From assembly GCA_017309015.1 (NCBI GenBank), contig JAEDAG010000002.1:124001-188000 (forward strand): DNA of 64,000 nt, in the 5' to 3' direction. The position numbers and the translations under genes are program-made. The DNA comes from Faecalicatena absiana. Lineage in GTDB: Bacteria; Bacillota; Bacilli; Lactobacillales; Lactobacillaceae. Shown here one piece after another: positions 35,195-49,854 of this stretch (positions are counted from its first letter, which is position 1; every line of letters starts with the position of its first letter). A model generated the notes under the pieces. It was not told the DNA's origin and made no database searches. It worked only from the letters and a program-made list of their open reading frames with translations.

Positions 35195-35208
35195 AGAACG
35201 CTTGTTTG
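35195..35208. promoter_or_regulatory. LexA operator in the lexA/ynzC gap
   Basis: AGAACGCTTGTTTG: GAAC-N4-GTTT, one base from the Gram-positive SOS core GAAC-N4-GTTC. It overlaps the lexA -35 box and lies between lexA and the divergent ynzC gene, so both could be repressed from it. Confidence 0.7.
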
Positions 35209-35275: not shown

Positions 35276-35893
35276 ATGAACCACGAAAACAAACAATTAG
35301 AAATTTTACAGTACATCTACGATACGGTTGAAAGTCGCGGATTCCCGCCAACGGTTCGCGAAATCTGTGCCGCGGTTGGACTTTCTTCCACTTCAACGGT
35401 CCATGGCCACTTAGTGCGCCTTGAGCGCAAGGGACTCCTGCAGAAGGACGCGACCAAGCCGCGGGCCATGGAAATTACCCCGGAAGGGCTCAAGGTCCTG
35501 GGCATCAAGCCGAAAGACATTCCTGTCGTCGGGGTGGTAACCGCCGGTCAGCCGATTCTGGCCGTTGAAACGATTGAAGACTACTTCCCGACCCCGCCAG
35601 ACCTCAAGAACGAGGCCGACGAGCTCTTCATGCTGAAGGTCCACGGAACTTCCATGATCAACGCTGGCATCTTGAACGGGGACTACGTGATCGTCCGCAA
35701 GCAGACCAATGCCAGCAACGGCGAGATCGTAGTGGCCATGACCGATGACGATGAAGCCACGGTCAAGCGCTTTTATAAGGAAGACGGGCACTTCCGCCTG
35801 CAGCCGGAAAACGACGCGATGGCTCCCATCATCCTGGATCAAGTCCAGATCCTGGGCAAGGTCGTTGGCCTCTACCGCAATGACATCAACTAG
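35276..35893 (+). CDS. lexA: SOS repressor LexA
   Basis: Repressor of the SOS regulon, self-cleaved when RecA is activated. The 205 residues show an N-terminal winged helix ([23 protein letters not shown]), the Ala90-Gly91 cleavage site (VVTAGQP) and the Ser126/Lys164 dyad ([10 protein letters not shown] and EATVKRF). Ser126 lies in HGTSM where most LexA have GDSM. The gene has an operator in its own promoter. A second likely LexA target in the window is the TerB/ATPase/helicase operon at 49832-49847. Confidence 0.96.
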
Positions 35894-44330: not shown

Positions 44331-46553
44331 CTACCGCATTTTTTCCACGCAGCGGCGCATTTCCGCCAGATCCAGGACGCTTTCGGCAAACTCCTTCCGG
44401 ACCAGCTCATCCGGCAGGCATTCATCATATTTGTCAAAGACCGGCACTTCCTTGGGGTAGACTAAATCCAGCGGGTCAAAGTCCTTGCTGGCCTCTTCTT
44501 TGACGATCGCGAAGAAGTCCTCGGGGCTGACGTCCATCGAAAACTGCATGTAGTAGGGACGCACGGAATCGAAGTTCTTCAAGCCCAGGCGCTTGGCGCA
44601 CTTTAATTTCAAGAGCCGTTCCAGGGCCAGGAAGGCATACGTCCCGGTCCAAGGAAACAGGCACCAGGTTTTGCCGCCCAGGTTGACCAGCTGCTTGGCC
44701 GGCATCCCCGCCATGCTAGCCATCGACCGCGTCTCGTTCAAGCGGGCTACGGCATTGGCCATCAAATATGGGTAGTTGCGGTCTTCTGACAAAATCTGCC
44801 GCATCCGCTCCAATATGCGGGGATGAATGTCCCCTGGCACGTCGCCAAAGTAAGCGGGGATCCGCCCCTTGACCCGGTGGACGTAGACCTGGTGGCGCTG
44901 GCGGTCGATTTCTTCAACCACCCACACGTGGCCCGCGATGGCCACCTTGTCGCCAATTGGGGGCGGCTTGACGATCGTGCCCAGCTCTTCTGAAGCTGAG
45001 TGGACGCTGTATTCTTCATTTTCCTGGAAAACGGCGTAGAACTTGAAATTGTTGGTCACCCGCTCCCCGCTCAGGCCCACGATCAAGCCCTTGTTTTCGG
45101 TCCACTGGATCTGGTCGGTCTTGAGCAAATGGCGCAGGAGCACTTTGTAGTCAGCTTGGGAGACCCGGTGAAAATATGACAAAGACAGGACCCGGGAAGC
45201 CAGTTCTGCTGGCGTCATCTCTCCCATCGACGCCAAGGTGCTCATGGTCTGGTGGTACAAAAGGCTGTATGGCAGGCGGTTTTCCCGCGGCGGCTCCACC
45301 CAGCGTTCTTCAAGATACAGCTGGACCAGGGCAATCCCCTGCAATAAGGGCCATGGGAACAAGACCGGCAGCATGGCCCGGCTTTCCGGGTGATCTTCGC
45401 GCATGACGAACCACGTTTCCGGCGGGTTGCCCCGCCGGCCGGTCCGCCCCATCCTCTGCAAAAAGCCTGAAACCGTAAAGGGAGCGTCAATTTGAAAGGC
45501 CCGCTCCAGCTGGCCGATGTCAATGCCCAGTTCCAAAGTCGCCGTCGCGCAGGTGGTCAATTTGACATTGTCGTCCTTCATTGCTTCTTCCGCGCTCTGG
45601 CGAAAGGCAGCTGACAGATTGCCATGGTGGATCATGAAGCGGTCCGGCTCATGCTTGGCCTCGCAGTACTGGCGCAGCACCTGGCAGACGGCCTCGCATT
45701 CCTCCCGGCTGTTGGTAAAGACCAGGCACTTCTTCCCCCGGGTATGGTCAAAGATATAGGCCATGCTGGGATCGGCCATTTCCGGTGCCTGGTCGCTGGC
45801 CTTGGCCAAAGGCGGCTGCCCCGCCGCGCTTCCGGCCCCAGCCTGGGGATCGGTCTTGTAAAAATGCTCCATTGACAAGCGCCAGACCTGGTGGTTGTCT
45901 TTAATCTTGGGAATCGAGGTCTTGCGCCTTGAGCCAGCAGCCAGGAACCTGCCGGCCGCTCTTGGATCCCCAATCGTCGCTGACAAGCCTACCCGCCGGG
46001 GATCGCAAGCGGCTAAGCGACCCAGGCGCTCAATCAGGCAGAAGGTCTGCCCGCCCCGGTCGCTGCGCAAAAAGGAGTGCAGCTCATCGATCACGATGTA
46101 GCGCAAGTCGCCAAACAAACGGGGAATATCCGCGTGCTTGTTGATCATCAATGACTCCAGCGATTCCGGCGTAATCTGCAAGACTCCGGACGGGTGCTTG
46201 AAGAGCTTGCGCTTTTGACTCTGGGACACGTCGCCGTGGTAGCGCCAAACCGGAATGTCCCCGCCAGCGCACAGGTCGCTGAGGCGCAGGTACTGGTCGT
46301 TGATCAGTGCCTTTAAGGGGGCGATGTACAAGCAGCCCACTGAGTCAGGCGGATCCTGAGCCAATTCCGTCAGAATCGGGAAAAAAGCAGCCTCTGTCTT
46401 CCCTGAGGCAGTGGCTGCTGACAATAGCAGGTTGTTGTCGGTGTTGAAGATCACATCGGCGCCTGCCAGCTGGATGGCCCGCAATTTCTGCCAGCCATGC
46501 TCATAAATATAGTCTTGGATAAAGGGGGCATAATGCCCGAATGCATCAAACAT
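44331..46553 (-). CDS. Lhr-like DEAD/DEAH-box helicase (SngC-like component of a Shango-like system)
   Basis: 740-residue superfamily 2 helicase. Motif I ATASGKTEAAF (about residue 47), Ia APLKALIND, motif II DELHSF (DELH), motif III SATIG, motif VI QRMGRTGRRG (about 365), then a long C-terminal region. It resembles the helicases found with BrxD-type ATPases (BrxHI/Lhr-like). It is the third gene of a tight operon after a TerB-domain protein and an ATPase, the gene set of Shango (SngA, SngB, SngC). Gap to the ATPase gene is ten bases. Antiphage function is inferred from gene set, not shown. Confidence 0.85.
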   Translation of the reverse strand: MFDAFGHYAPFIQDYIYEHGWQKLRAIQLAGADVIFNTDNNLLLSAATASGKTEAAFFPILTELAQDPPDSVGCLYIAPLKALINDQYLRLSDLCAGGDIPVWRYHGDVSQSQKRKLFKHPSGVLQITPESLESLMINKHADIPRLFGDLRYIVIDELHSFLRSDRGGQTFCLIERLGRLAACDPRRVGLSATIGDPRAAGRFLAAGSRRKTSIPKIKDNHQVWRLSMEHFYKTDPQAGAGSAAGQPPLAKASDQAPEMADPSMAYIFDHTRGKKCLVFTNSREECEAVCQVLRQYCEAKHEPDRFMIHHGNLSAAFRQSAEEAMKDDNVKLTTCATATLELGIDIGQLERAFQIDAPFTVSGFLQRMGRTGRRGNPPETWFVMREDHPESRAMLPVLFPWPLLQGIALVQLYLEERWVEPPRENRLPYSLLYHQTMSTLASMGEMTPAELASRVLSLSYFHRVSQADYKVLLRHLLKTDQIQWTENKGLIVGLSGERVTNNFKFYAVFQENEEYSVHSASEELGTIVKPPPIGDKVAIAGHVWVVEEIDRQRHQVYVHRVKGRIPAYFGDVPGDIHPRILERMRQILSEDRNYPYLMANAVARLNETRSMASMAGMPAKQLVNLGGKTWCLFPWTGTYAFLALERLLKLKCAKRLGLKNFDSVRPYYMQFSMDVSPEDFFAIVKEEASKDFDPLDLVYPKEVPVFDKYDECLPDELVRKEFAESVLDLAEMRRCVEKMR

Positions 46554-46563
46554 AATTTATCCC

Positions 46564-47892
46564 TTAAATCGTAAATTCCGCGTATTCATCCGTCTTGTCG
46601 TCTGAAACGGCGTCAGACTTGGCATAGGCAAAATCATCGCTCTCCAGGAGTTCCTTGACGGAAGTGCCGGGGTTCTGCCAAACGATGTCGAGCAGCTCGA
46701 TAAAGTCGCGGATGACCTCCCGCGGGGTAATATTGGTGTCGGACCCAATCCGGGCAAACTCCGTCTTGATAAAGGCCTCCAGATCCGCTTCCGTAATGGT
46801 CTGCTCATAGCCGTACAGGCCAGCATGCATGGCCGCCAGTTTCTCGGTCAAGACCAGCATCTCTTCGGGGGTCAATGGATCAAGCTTGATCACCGGGGCA
46901 TACATGTCCCGGGCGCCAGCCTTGGCAAACTTGCCTTCAGCCAGACGCGAGCGCAGGGCCTCATATGAGTAGACGCCCCGGCGCCGGTCTTCAATCGCCT
47001 GGGGCGTTCCGCACATGATGATGCCCAAATGCTTGGCCTTGCCTTGCATGGCATCATTGTACATGGCCAGCAGCTTTTCATAGTTGTACTGGCGGCTGAT
47101 GGCGTTGGGGATCTTGTAGAGGTTGACCAGCTCATCGATCATGATGAACATGCCGCTGTAGCCGGCCTGTCTGAAGAAGCTGGCAAAGAGCTTGAGGTAT
47201 TCATACCAGTCGTCATCTGAAATGATGATGTTGACGCCCAATTCCTTCCGGGCATCGGTCTTCAGCTTGTACTCTCCCCTGAACCACTTGATTACCTTGC
47301 CCTTGGTGGCTTCATCCCCGTCAACGTAGGCATCGTAGTACATCTGCAGGAGCTTGGCGAAGTCAAAGCCGTGCACCAGCTCGCTAAGGCTGGAAATCAC
47401 GGCAAAAATCTTCTGGTCCACGGCCTCCTTAAAGGCCGGGCTGGCAAAATCCAGCCCGCTTTCCTGGGCCACGCTGGTCTGCAAGTTGTTGATCCAGCGG
47501 TCCAAGACCAGGTTCAAGGCTCCGCCTTCTGGCCGGGTCTTGGTGGCCAGGTTCTGGATCAGTTCCCGGTAGGTCGCCAAGCCCTGTCCCTTGCTTCCTT
47601 GCAGGCGCCGTTCCGGCGACAGGTCGGCGTCAACGACGACAAAGTTCCGGTCCATTACGTAGTTGCGGATGGTCTGAAGCAAAAAGCTCTTCCCTGACCC
47701 ATAGCGGCCCTCAATAAAGCGGAAAGATGCCCCGCCTTCCTGCACCACCTCAACGTCGTGCAGCAGGGCAGCAATTTCCGACTTGCGGCCGACGGTGACG
47801 TAAGGCAGGCCAATGCGGGGCACGACCCCGCCCTTCAGGGAATTCAAGACCGTTTGCGCGATTCGCTTGGGAACTCGTTTTTTCTTTTCCAA
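46564..47892 (-). CDS. BrxD-like ATP-binding protein (SngB-like component of a Shango-like system)
   Basis: 442-residue P-loop ATPase of the BREX BrxD/DUF2791 type. Walker A EGRYGSGKSFLL (about 61-72), Walker B with GMFIMIDELVNLY (about 240), and later CGTPQAIEDRRRGVYSYEALRSRL in two recognisable sensor parts. BrxD-like proteins load or control partner helicases; here the partner is the Lhr-like helicase ten bases downstream. It starts three bases after the TerB gene. No pglX, pglZ or brxC is present, so this is not a BREX locus. Confidence 0.87.
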   Translation of the reverse strand: MEKKKRVPKRIAQTVLNSLKGGVVPRIGLPYVTVGRKSEIAALLHDVEVVQEGGASFRFIEGRYGSGKSFLLQTIRNYVMDRNFVVVDADLSPERRLQGSKGQGLATYRELIQNLATKTRPEGGALNLVLDRWINNLQTSVAQESGLDFASPAFKEAVDQKIFAVISSLSELVHGFDFAKLLQMYYDAYVDGDEATKGKVIKWFRGEYKLKTDARKELGVNIIISDDDWYEYLKLFASFFRQAGYSGMFIMIDELVNLYKIPNAISRQYNYEKLLAMYNDAMQGKAKHLGIIMCGTPQAIEDRRRGVYSYEALRSRLAEGKFAKAGARDMYAPVIKLDPLTPEEMLVLTEKLAAMHAGLYGYEQTITEADLEAFIKTEFARIGSDTNITPREVIRDFIELLDIVWQNPGTSVKELLESDDFAYAKSDAVSDDKTDEYAEFTI

Positions 47893-47895
47893 AAT

Positions 47896-49794
47896 TTATT
47901 CCTCGCTTCCAAATAAATCTGACAAGTCATCCCGGTAGTCTTCAACCAGTTCCGGCTCAGTGCCGGCAATTTCGATGACGGAGTCGCCAATCTCGTCAAA
48001 AAGCTTCTCGTTGATGCTGTCCGCCAGGACCTCGGTGAGCAGGTGGTGCTGCTTGACGTAGCCGCTCACGCTCTTGCCGGCCATCAGCTGCTGGAGCACA
48101 TAGCCTTCTTCTGGCGTCAAGTCAAACTGACCAAAAGATTCCTTGCATTCTTGGCTGGGGGCTGCTTGCTGGCTGGCTGCGGCTTCTTGCTCTGCTTCAG
48201 CCTCTTGGGCTTCCAGCTGCCGTTCTTCTTCAGTCAGCAGGCTCTCCCGCGTTTCAGCCGCGTCGCCCCTGATCTTGGCCAGACTGGCCAGGTTCAGGTG
48301 AATCTTCGGCTTTTCGCGCTCGGCTTCTTCACGCAGGTAGGTCTTGATCCCGGCTTCGATGGCCTCTTGCAAGGCGGCAGGCAGGGGACGCTCTTTCATC
48401 TTGCGCCCGCATCCAAGCGCCAAGCGGCTGCGGCGGTCAATCTCGTGCAGCAGGTCTGGCAGCAGCTTGTGCTGGCGGACGGCTGGCCAGTAGACCTCGC
48501 TGGTCCACTTGCCGTCTTTGCAGCGGTAGGTCACGGCCTGCCCGACCTGGTAAGTGGCCGCCTCAATTGGATGGGGGCTGTAGAAGGCGGCATCCACGAA
48601 CAGGTGCATGGGAAAGACCGACTTCTCGCCGACCAGCTGCTGGGCTAGCTGCTTGGGCGACGCCTTGATCTCTTTCCAGACGTCAGCCACCAGGCTGGCA
48701 TACTTTTCAGGGTCTTCCTTCAGCAAGGGATTGGCTCCCGGCTTGCTCTTGGCCAAGGTCAACAGAGCCTGGTAGACCTTGCTGTCCCCTTCAGCGTCCG
48801 CCAGCAAGCTTTCATACGGCTCAGCCCGCTTGATTTCTTCGGCAAATTCCTGCTCTTCTTCCTCTGGACTGAGCTTTATCCCGTAATAGACCAGGTAGCC
48901 CTGGATCAGGTGCTTCAAATCCCAGATCGTCAGCTGGTCCTGTCCTTGATAATGCTCTTGCAAAAGCCGCAGCTGCCTGAGCCCGGCAAGCGGGTCTTTT
49001 ATCCCGATCTGGCAGACGATTTCACTGGTTAGCAGGTACAAAAAGCCCGACTTGGCTGGGGCAAAATCCCCCTGTCTGACCCGCGAGCGCCAAGAGAAGT
49101 AGTCCCGCAGCTCCTTAACTGACAAGTCATGGTAGACCGGCCTGCGAAAGCGAATCTGGCCGGAATAGGAAAAATTGTCCTCATAGTCAGCCATCATCAT
49201 CCCTTGATAGTAAAAGTTGGCTTCCCGCCGGGTCGCCACTGGCAGCTGGTAGTCATATGACTCCAGCATCCGACTGATAGCGGGCGGGGTGTCGTCTCGC
49301 CCGCGAACCGGAGATTTGGAACTGAAAATGACGTCTGAGCCATGATGACTGACTCGGCGATGGTCCGACCGCTTGACGAAGCTGCCCCGCTCAGGGATGG
49401 CCTCGTCCTCATATGGCGACTCATCGTTGCGGTCGGCCACGTAAAACATGTGCTCACGCCGCTTGACCGCTGGCCGGCCAGCTTGATAAGCCGTGTCCAA
49501 AGTCTTTAGCAAGAAGCGGTCATTCAGCTCGGGCGCGGTCAGGTCAACTCCCAGCCACCCCCGGTCCTTGATGCAGATCGGCGCTCCAAAGCCAGGCTGC
49601 TTGGCCAAAAAAGCCGCGATCGAACCGCAGTGCAGGTCAAGGCCTTCTTTCTCCCCCTGCTTGATCAAGAGGGCGAAAGCAGTCTCAGCTCCTGGAACGA
49701 TCAAAGCCGCCATGCTGACCTCGCCGCTAGTGATAAAATCGACCCCCAAGCCATACTTCTTCTGGACGTATTTGGCTAGTTCTGACAAGCGCAT
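47896..49794 (-). CDS. TerB-N/TerB-C domain protein (SngA-like component of a Shango-like system)
   Basis: 632 residues from the ATG at 49794, which has GGAGGTG seven bases upstream. An N-terminal domain of about 110 residues looks like a restriction-endonuclease-like or nucleic-acid binding fold but is not firmly assigned. TerB-N begins near residue 194 (FYYQGMMMADYEDNFSYSG, then HDLSVKELRDYFSWRSRVRQG); an Ala/Glu/Gln-rich linker precedes a C-terminal TerB-C-like part (LTPEEGYVLQQLMAGKSVSGYV, then acidic end). TerB-domain plus ATPase plus helicase is the Shango set. A LexA-type operator lies in the promoter. Confidence 0.85.
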   Translation of the reverse strand: MRLSELAKYVQKKYGLGVDFITSGEVSMAALIVPGAETAFALLIKQGEKEGLDLHCGSIAAFLAKQPGFGAPICIKDRGWLGVDLTAPELNDRFLLKTLDTAYQAGRPAVKRREHMFYVADRNDESPYEDEAIPERGSFVKRSDHRRVSHHGSDVIFSSKSPVRGRDDTPPAISRMLESYDYQLPVATRREANFYYQGMMMADYEDNFSYSGQIRFRRPVYHDLSVKELRDYFSWRSRVRQGDFAPAKSGFLYLLTSEIVCQIGIKDPLAGLRQLRLLQEHYQGQDQLTIWDLKHLIQGYLVYYGIKLSPEEEEQEFAEEIKRAEPYESLLADAEGDSKVYQALLTLAKSKPGANPLLKEDPEKYASLVADVWKEIKASPKQLAQQLVGEKSVFPMHLFVDAAFYSPHPIEAATYQVGQAVTYRCKDGKWTSEVYWPAVRQHKLLPDLLHEIDRRSRLALGCGRKMKERPLPAALQEAIEAGIKTYLREEAEREKPKIHLNLASLAKIRGDAAETRESLLTEEERQLEAQEAEAEQEAAASQQAAPSQECKESFGQFDLTPEEGYVLQQLMAGKSVSGYVKQHHLLTEVLADSINEKLFDEIGDSVIEIAGTEPELVEDYRDDLSDLFGSEE

Positions 49795-49825
49795 GCTTTC
49801 ACCTCCATCTTTCTGTCTGTTACAT

Positions 49826-49854
49826 ATTATATAGAACGAATGTTCTAAGCACAA
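49826..49854 (-). promoter_or_regulatory. SOS-type promoter of the TerB/ATPase/helicase operon
   Basis: Minus strand: TTGTGC (49849-49854), 17 bases, TATAAT (49826-49831). The spacer is filled by the palindrome TAGAACATTCGTTCTA (49832-49847), which contains GAAC-N4-GTTC, the Gram-positive LexA box core. A bound repressor would block polymerase directly. Confidence 0.85.

Follow-up and report, generated by a model that had tools for sequence, protein, structure and literature searches.

A putative LexA operator in the promoter of a Shango operon and its conservation across Lactobacillus

LexA bound over a promoter blocks RNA polymerase, and RecA-driven cleavage of LexA releases it, which is the standard pathway of the SOS response. 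In CBASS, CapH/CapP gate a defence operon transcriptionally upon DNA damage. The conditions that turn defence systems on are largely unsettled, and here we describe a known system that is apparently wired to the general DNA-damage repressor. The system is Shango, which as SngABC of Pseudomonas aeruginosa PA14 restricts phages (PMC10250203). Transcriptional gating is also described for BREX, in which the WYL repressor BrxR controls the defence operon (PMC9122589, PMC9122601), and a 2013 study of the Lactobacillales predicted a LexA regulon of 13 operons for the Lactobacillaceae, with parEC, addBA and nrnA among its examples (PMC3616900). The original prediction for this DNA had known of no description of SOS control for Shango, and our literature search, which covered titles, the openings of abstracts and selected passages, likewise met no report linking Shango to LexA or SOS; nor did the literature searched offer a mechanism of Shango.

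The operon and its promoter

The window, by which we mean the whole 64-kb stretch of DNA analysed, carries the three expected Shango components adjacent on one strand, as called by PADLOC and Pfam. The operon is therefore Shango, and the earlier description of a Shango-like operon for a TerB protein, an ATPase and a helicase was borne out by the matches given here with the features of its promoter:

44331..46553, minus strand: sngC, DEAD/DEAH helicase, 740 aa (PADLOC SngC 1.2e-274; Pfam DEAD/Helicase_C)
46564..47892, minus strand: sngB, BrxC/BrxD-like ATPase, 442 aa (PADLOC SngB 3.5e-195; Pfam BrxC_BrxD)
47896..49794, minus strand: sngA, TerB_N/TerB_C protein of about 632 aa, ATG at 49794 (PADLOC SngA 1.2e-59; Pfam TerB_C, TerB_N)
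49800..49806, minus strand: Shine-Dalgarno sequence GGAGGTG (read from the sequence)
49826..49831, minus strand: -10 element TATAAT, 17-nt spacer from the -35 element (consensus match only)
49832..49847, minus strand: putative LexA-type operator TAGAACATTCGTTCTA, within the promoter spacer (palindrome and conserved core)
49849..49854, minus strand: -35 element TTGTGC (consensus match only)

We placed the start of sngA at ATG 49794, as the start in the open reading frame list, 49896, would run through the promoter. No regulator gene was recognised in or beside the operon.

The predicted promoter, TTGTGC-17-TATAAT on the minus strand, had been read correctly to each base of the 64-kb sequence. 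Its 17-nt spacer, TTAGAACATTCGTTCTA (49848-49832, read on the minus strand), is occupied nearly whole by TAGAACATTCGTTCTA, a palindrome with arms of 6 bases flanking 4, whose core GAAC-ATTC-GTTC lies at 49834-49845. The box thus sits between the consensus -35 and -10, adjoining promoter elements, and the SOS core GAAC-N4-GTTC that had been placed in the spacer was confirmed within 49832-49847. The sequence GAACNNNNGTTC occurs once in the window and is the sole exact GAAC-N4-GTTC there. Because 100 dinucleotide shuffles gave a mean of 0.93 exact cores per window, with at least one in 60 of the 100, a single occurrence in 64 kb carries no significance by itself; with one mismatch allowed, the number of cores (14 sites against 24.0 expected) falls below expectation. 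The significance of the putative operator rests on its placement in a promoter and on its conservation, not on its occurrence in the window.

Likeness to the LexA sites of lactobacilli

The repressor gene itself also lies in the window:

35196..35207, plus strand: LexA box of lexA, GAACGCTTGTTT, one mismatch, starting 80 bp before the lexA ATG
35276..35893, plus strand: lexA, 205 aa (Pfam LexA_DNA_bind, Peptidase_S24)

The box is the one-mismatch core that had been noticed earlier in the lexA promoter. Homologues of lexA were present in all 30 Lactobacillus genomes compared (76-83% identity), GAAC-N4-GTTT stands upstream of lexA in 31/31 Lactobacillus genomes, and recA is preceded by a core with 0-1 mismatch in 29/29, recA being missing from two incomplete genomes. 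Given these lexA and recA boxes, a core with one mismatch is normal for LexA sites in this group.

We built a matrix from 60 lexA/recA sites, 37 of them unique. Every one of 31 readable sng upstreams scored at least 7.8 and 29 scored at least 9, against 3/220 and 0/220, respectively, for control upstreams of ORFs of at least 100 aa in the same loci, which are not proven promoters. This control set replaced one of 425 upstreams, which was dropped because it included the sng, lexA and recA promoters. Mononucleotide shuffles reached 7.8 in 32 of 1860 cases. The site in the window scored 16.7, against a median of 15.8 and a minimum of 9.7 for the lexA/recA training sites, and three other loci with an exact core (L066-L068) scored 14.6-17.9. 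The other 27 promoters, with one mismatch, have one degraded half-site (GAAT...GTTC, or GAAC...GTAC/GTGC) and scored 7.8-11.0, which puts four under the lowest training site (9.7) and the rest near the bottom of the training range; some of these sites may be weak or may serve another repressor.

A scan of single-contig genomes with the sng-type motif GAAYRYRYGTNCG returned one site in G009, two in G043 and three in G023, always including that of sngA. The other site in G043 is the promoter of a Y-family polymerase, and those in G023 belong to a PLD-domain gene and to an ORF divergent from a RarA-like ATPase, 'RarA-like' being our reading of an AAA ATPase. Because the counts resemble those of a reversed control (1, 3 and 2 against 0, 3 and 1 in G009, G023 and G043), the rarity of the motif is weak evidence, and it is the identity of the neighbours that counts. 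With the strict form CGAACNNNNGTTYG we obtained 6 sites over four genomes, fewer than the 21 of the reversed control; three of the 6 lie past the plsY 3' end, two before the gene beside gmk and one before a tyrosine-recombinase gene. Neither form clearly beats its reversed control genome-wide.

Two loci seen in passing deserve mention. The PLD-like domain gene of G023 (L356:1501-3013) has GAACATATGTACG just upstream, arranged as in sng; with weak PADLOC matches to ZacB, PbeA, DrmC and DpdK, it is perhaps a second SOS-linked defence gene. In L358:1501-3013, GAATACACGTTCG lies between an AAA ATPase gene and a divergent ORF of at least 487 aa, for which there was no Pfam or PADLOC match.

We inspected every one of the 32 exact GAAC-N4-GTTC sites in the genome from which the window comes. 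Six stand at recA (confirmed by Pfam RecA), at one Y-family DNA polymerase gene (two sites), at a gene of about 100 aa divergent from gmk (guanylate kinase), beyond the plsY 3' end and at Shango. Among the others, copies of an IS200/IS605-type element account for 17 and a different repeat for 4; L022, L024 and L025 have theirs within long coding ORFs (3 sites), and no SOS gene is evident at the second site of L013 or at L023 (2 sites). We therefore rejected the notion that every exact core is a LexA box. The cores borne by insertion elements (L001-L003, L005, L006, L008-L012, L014, L016, L017, L019, L020, L026 and L027), mostly GAACTAATGTTC, can mislead naive regulon scans and may act as a sink for LexA; the element was called from Pfam Y1_Tnp and OrfB_IS605 on one protein each, and its other copies by like sequence or by eye.

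The gene of about 100 aa beside gmk (L013:1726-2031, C12:217525-217830 of the same genome; L351:1185-1479; L352:1172-1478) has LexA-type boxes in front, two each in L351 and L352. With no NCBIfam match for the L013 copy and no Pfam match for that of L351, it may be an SOS gene that has so far gone undescribed in lactobacilli. A LexA-type box also lies just past the plsY 3' end in four genomes (L018:1643-1654, and around 1502 in L349, L350 and L354). We had considered it as an SOS promoter between plsY and parE, and did not count it as such because the box is beyond the plsY 3' end; in the genome of the window, parE adjoins the opposite side of plsY. In L018 and L350 the box falls within promoter-like sequence pointing antisense through plsY towards parE, so that a LexA-controlled long parEC leader, antisense to plsY, is conceivable.

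Conservation in Lactobacillus and occurrence beyond it

SngB was found in 32/75 Lactobacillus genomes, that of the window among them. We read the sngA promoter in 31, namely the window and 30 of the 31 other loci, G058 (L054) being excluded because its contig lacks the sngA start. Loss of the palindrome from related operons, which the original prediction had named as evidence against itself, was checked between species rather than strains and was not seen: in each of the 31 promoters a core with no more than one mismatch is retained no further than 120 bp from the start, 4 of them (the window and L066-L068) having it exact and 27 with one mismatch. Because of their common ancestry, the 31 species do not amount to as many independent tests. 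By the best TBLASTN segments, proteins of the other Lactobacillus loci are 29-49% (SngA) and 75-81% (SngB) identical to those of the window.

When 13 species are aligned, hardly any column ahead of the start codon is invariant apart from those of the box arms and the -10. The position of the box is less constant, lying in the spacer in the window and at or before the -35 in L066-L068. Among the 27 others, a recognisable -10 is directly ahead of the box in 20, and our hexamer pattern found none in the remaining 7. The genes flanking the operon vary between clades and the box stays. A box kept through such shifts of position speaks for selection on binding more than for inertia. In L068 (G010), the operon is broken in several places and the box is identical to that of L067.

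Named operons from other genera of the Lactobacillaceae have the box in two of three cases, Limosilactobacillus viscerum and Limosilactobacillus secaliphilus, the latter with a one-mismatch core 31 bp before the likely true start. The third, Lentilactobacillus raoultii (L228), has an SngB 81% identical and no box near the sngA start. In a sample of the order, SngB occurs in 38/395 genomes, 27 of them outside Lactobacillus; within the family of the window the matches are confined to Lactobacillus, and the named records add the three operons elsewhere. Of the 27 loci outside the genus we used 26, one fragment being excluded. In a distant clade (family f5, genus g47), whose SngB is about 34% identical, all 11 of 11 loci carry the exact core ahead of the -35 of an SngA-like gene, and these rows, being close kin, count as one event; PADLOC identified SngA (8e-17), SngB (7.7e-142) and SngC (6.2e-186) in one such operon. 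A one-mismatch core is present in 2/4 loci of f2/g42, and GAACAAAYGTTTGG stands ahead of an operon starting with SngB in 4/4 of f5/g69 and g79. The other 7 of the 26 loci, judged at the first start codon, have no box. A lexA box is present in 26/26 of the same genomes.

In the SngB-led operons of L201, L202, L203 and L341, the LexA-type box GAACAAAYGTTTGG is 61-68 bp before sngB, with no SngA directly upstream of that gene. Another arrangement is seen in L206, L207 and L210 of family f10, in the same class, where a spaced inverted repeat (ACAAGTGT...ACACYTGTTCG) surrounds the sngA -10 and is possibly the site of another regulator.

In a tree of 59 SngB rows, the longest branch (2.11 changes per column) parts the f5/f2 clade from the Lactobacillus clade, and with midpoint rooting unboxed clades fall between the two. 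We use 'unboxed' for the absence, near the start, of any core with one mismatch or fewer, and the tree labels the Limosilactobacillus secaliphilus row 'no' despite its one-mismatch core. Independent gain of the box in f5 and in Lactobacillus would be the simplest reading, with repeated loss as the alternative. The wiring is thus seen in many species and has apparently arisen more than once in evolution. We give an even chance to a broader proposal, that Shango has been captured repeatedly by SOS, at least two deep lineages having gained a putative LexA operator independently, and that it is a damage-gated module of immunity and genome integrity, off in healthy cells and fired by genome damage, the signal that also wakes prophages.

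Named loci extend the comparison: 68 of 80 have a readable sngA start, 59 of these outside the Lactobacillaceae, and six of the nine from within that family duplicate genomes already counted. Outside the family, an exact core is found in 3/59 (L244, L249 and L256) against roughly 0.3 expected, and we regard these as candidate boxes. A one-mismatch core alone is found in 9/59; because some seven are expected by chance, by a hand estimate with uniform bases and about 340 bp scanned, we gave these nine no weight. A sample of the phylum (20 regions from 50 genomes with an SngB match of any strength) yielded 0/20 exact and 2/20 one-mismatch cores. SngB matches 692 plasmid records, of which seven were read, and an exact GAAC-N4-GTTC stands 160 bp ahead of one Paenibacillus operon; in phage records SngB had no match. 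The motif CTGT-N8-ACAG, allowing one mismatch, was found in 0/6 Pseudomonadota operons, among which the Klebsiella and E. coli upstreams are identical and hence not independent. Most Clostridia-type operons examined also have no box. These two groups led us to reject the idea that Shango is under SOS control in general, and the LexA-type wiring, as read from the motif, is lineage-specific.

A proposed SOS link, its rivals and known systems

We propose that sngABC very probably belongs to the SOS regulon, in which case LexA would repress it, DNA damage would release it, and the induced operon would act against phage in this host. The prediction that Shango is under LexA control is supported for Lactobacillus by the conservation of the site in 31/31 promoters and its LexA-like score of 16.7, and not for Shango as a whole. 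In the proposed sequence of events, LexA on TAGAACATTCGTTCTA between the -35 and the -10 would keep RNA polymerase off the sng promoter. Damage from phage replication or nucleases, prophage induction, replication collapse or genotoxic stress would lead to RecA filaments, these would provoke self-cleavage of LexA, and the sng promoter would open, so that the TerB protein, the ATPase and the helicase would be made alongside the repair genes.

Other explanations of the palindrome have to be weighed against LexA control. That it arose by chance and has no function might be thought from the roughly one exact core expected per 64 kb and from the 17/32 exact genomic sites that go with insertion elements; we rejected a chance match on the conservation and matrix comparison across Lactobacillus, and with the core kept in 31/31 promoters, 0/220 controls at a score of 9 and recurrence in a distant clade, we regard it as extremely unlikely. 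It is decidedly improbable, if less so, that a different repressor, of prophage or WYL/BrxR-like type and with a half-site resembling that of LexA, uses the palindrome as its operator. Dedicated regulators do exist for other defence operons (PMC9122589, PMC9122601), and in 27/31 promoters, with moderate scores, one half-site differs from GAAC at bases unlike the variable ones of lexA. Such a repressor fits poorly with the failure to recognise any regulator gene in or beside the operon, with neighbours that change by clade as the box stays, with the same motif at a Y-family polymerase promoter and with the strong match of the window site to the LexA matrix (16.7).

A further possibility rivals only the defence half of our proposal, namely that Shango in Lactobacillus is chiefly a module of DNA repair or genome integrity and is under LexA for that reason. 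Its presence in 32/75 species, at few sites that are common within clades, and its apparent co-regulation with repair genes would suit such a role. Against this, one study groups SngC with BrxHI, DruE and DpdJ in a helicase clade whose defining feature it gives as antiphage function (PMC12278908), Shango of P. aeruginosa restricts phages (PMC10250203), and the occurrence is patchy, family SngB matches in the order sample being all from Lactobacillus with three operons of other genera found elsewhere. We consider the repair reading rather unlikely.

If LexA does control the operon, Shango protection would depend on damage history, may come out too low when healthy cells are plated, and phage resistance would change under mitomycin C or DNA-damaging antibiotics. 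The wiring may further offer a clue to what Shango senses or tolerates, and it would set Shango against prophages, which the same signal wakes to leave.

In comparison with known systems, CapH/CapP and BrxR are dedicated regulators encoded with the system that they control, whereas here the LexA of the host would serve, the operon having no regulator gene. The Shango of PA14 has the same kinds of component, a TerB-like protein, an ATPase and a DEAD/DEAH helicase, listed in this sequence; it was cloned with a native promoter, and 'SOS' and 'DNA damage' each appear 0 times in the main text of that report (PMC10250203). Six Pseudomonadota Shango promoters, PA14 not among them, are without CTGT-N8-ACAG, unlike the Lactobacillus operons with their box. 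The Lactobacillaceae LexA regulon involves the same repressor, and the box beyond plsY, which possibly serves parEC, was found here too; no defence operon is among its three named examples, and the sng genes may stand unnamed among the 13 operons (PMC3616900). Hachiman is likewise a defence helicase tied to DNA damage, and Hachiman detects damage at the level of the protein, whereas the link proposed here for Shango would be transcriptional (PMC12278908).
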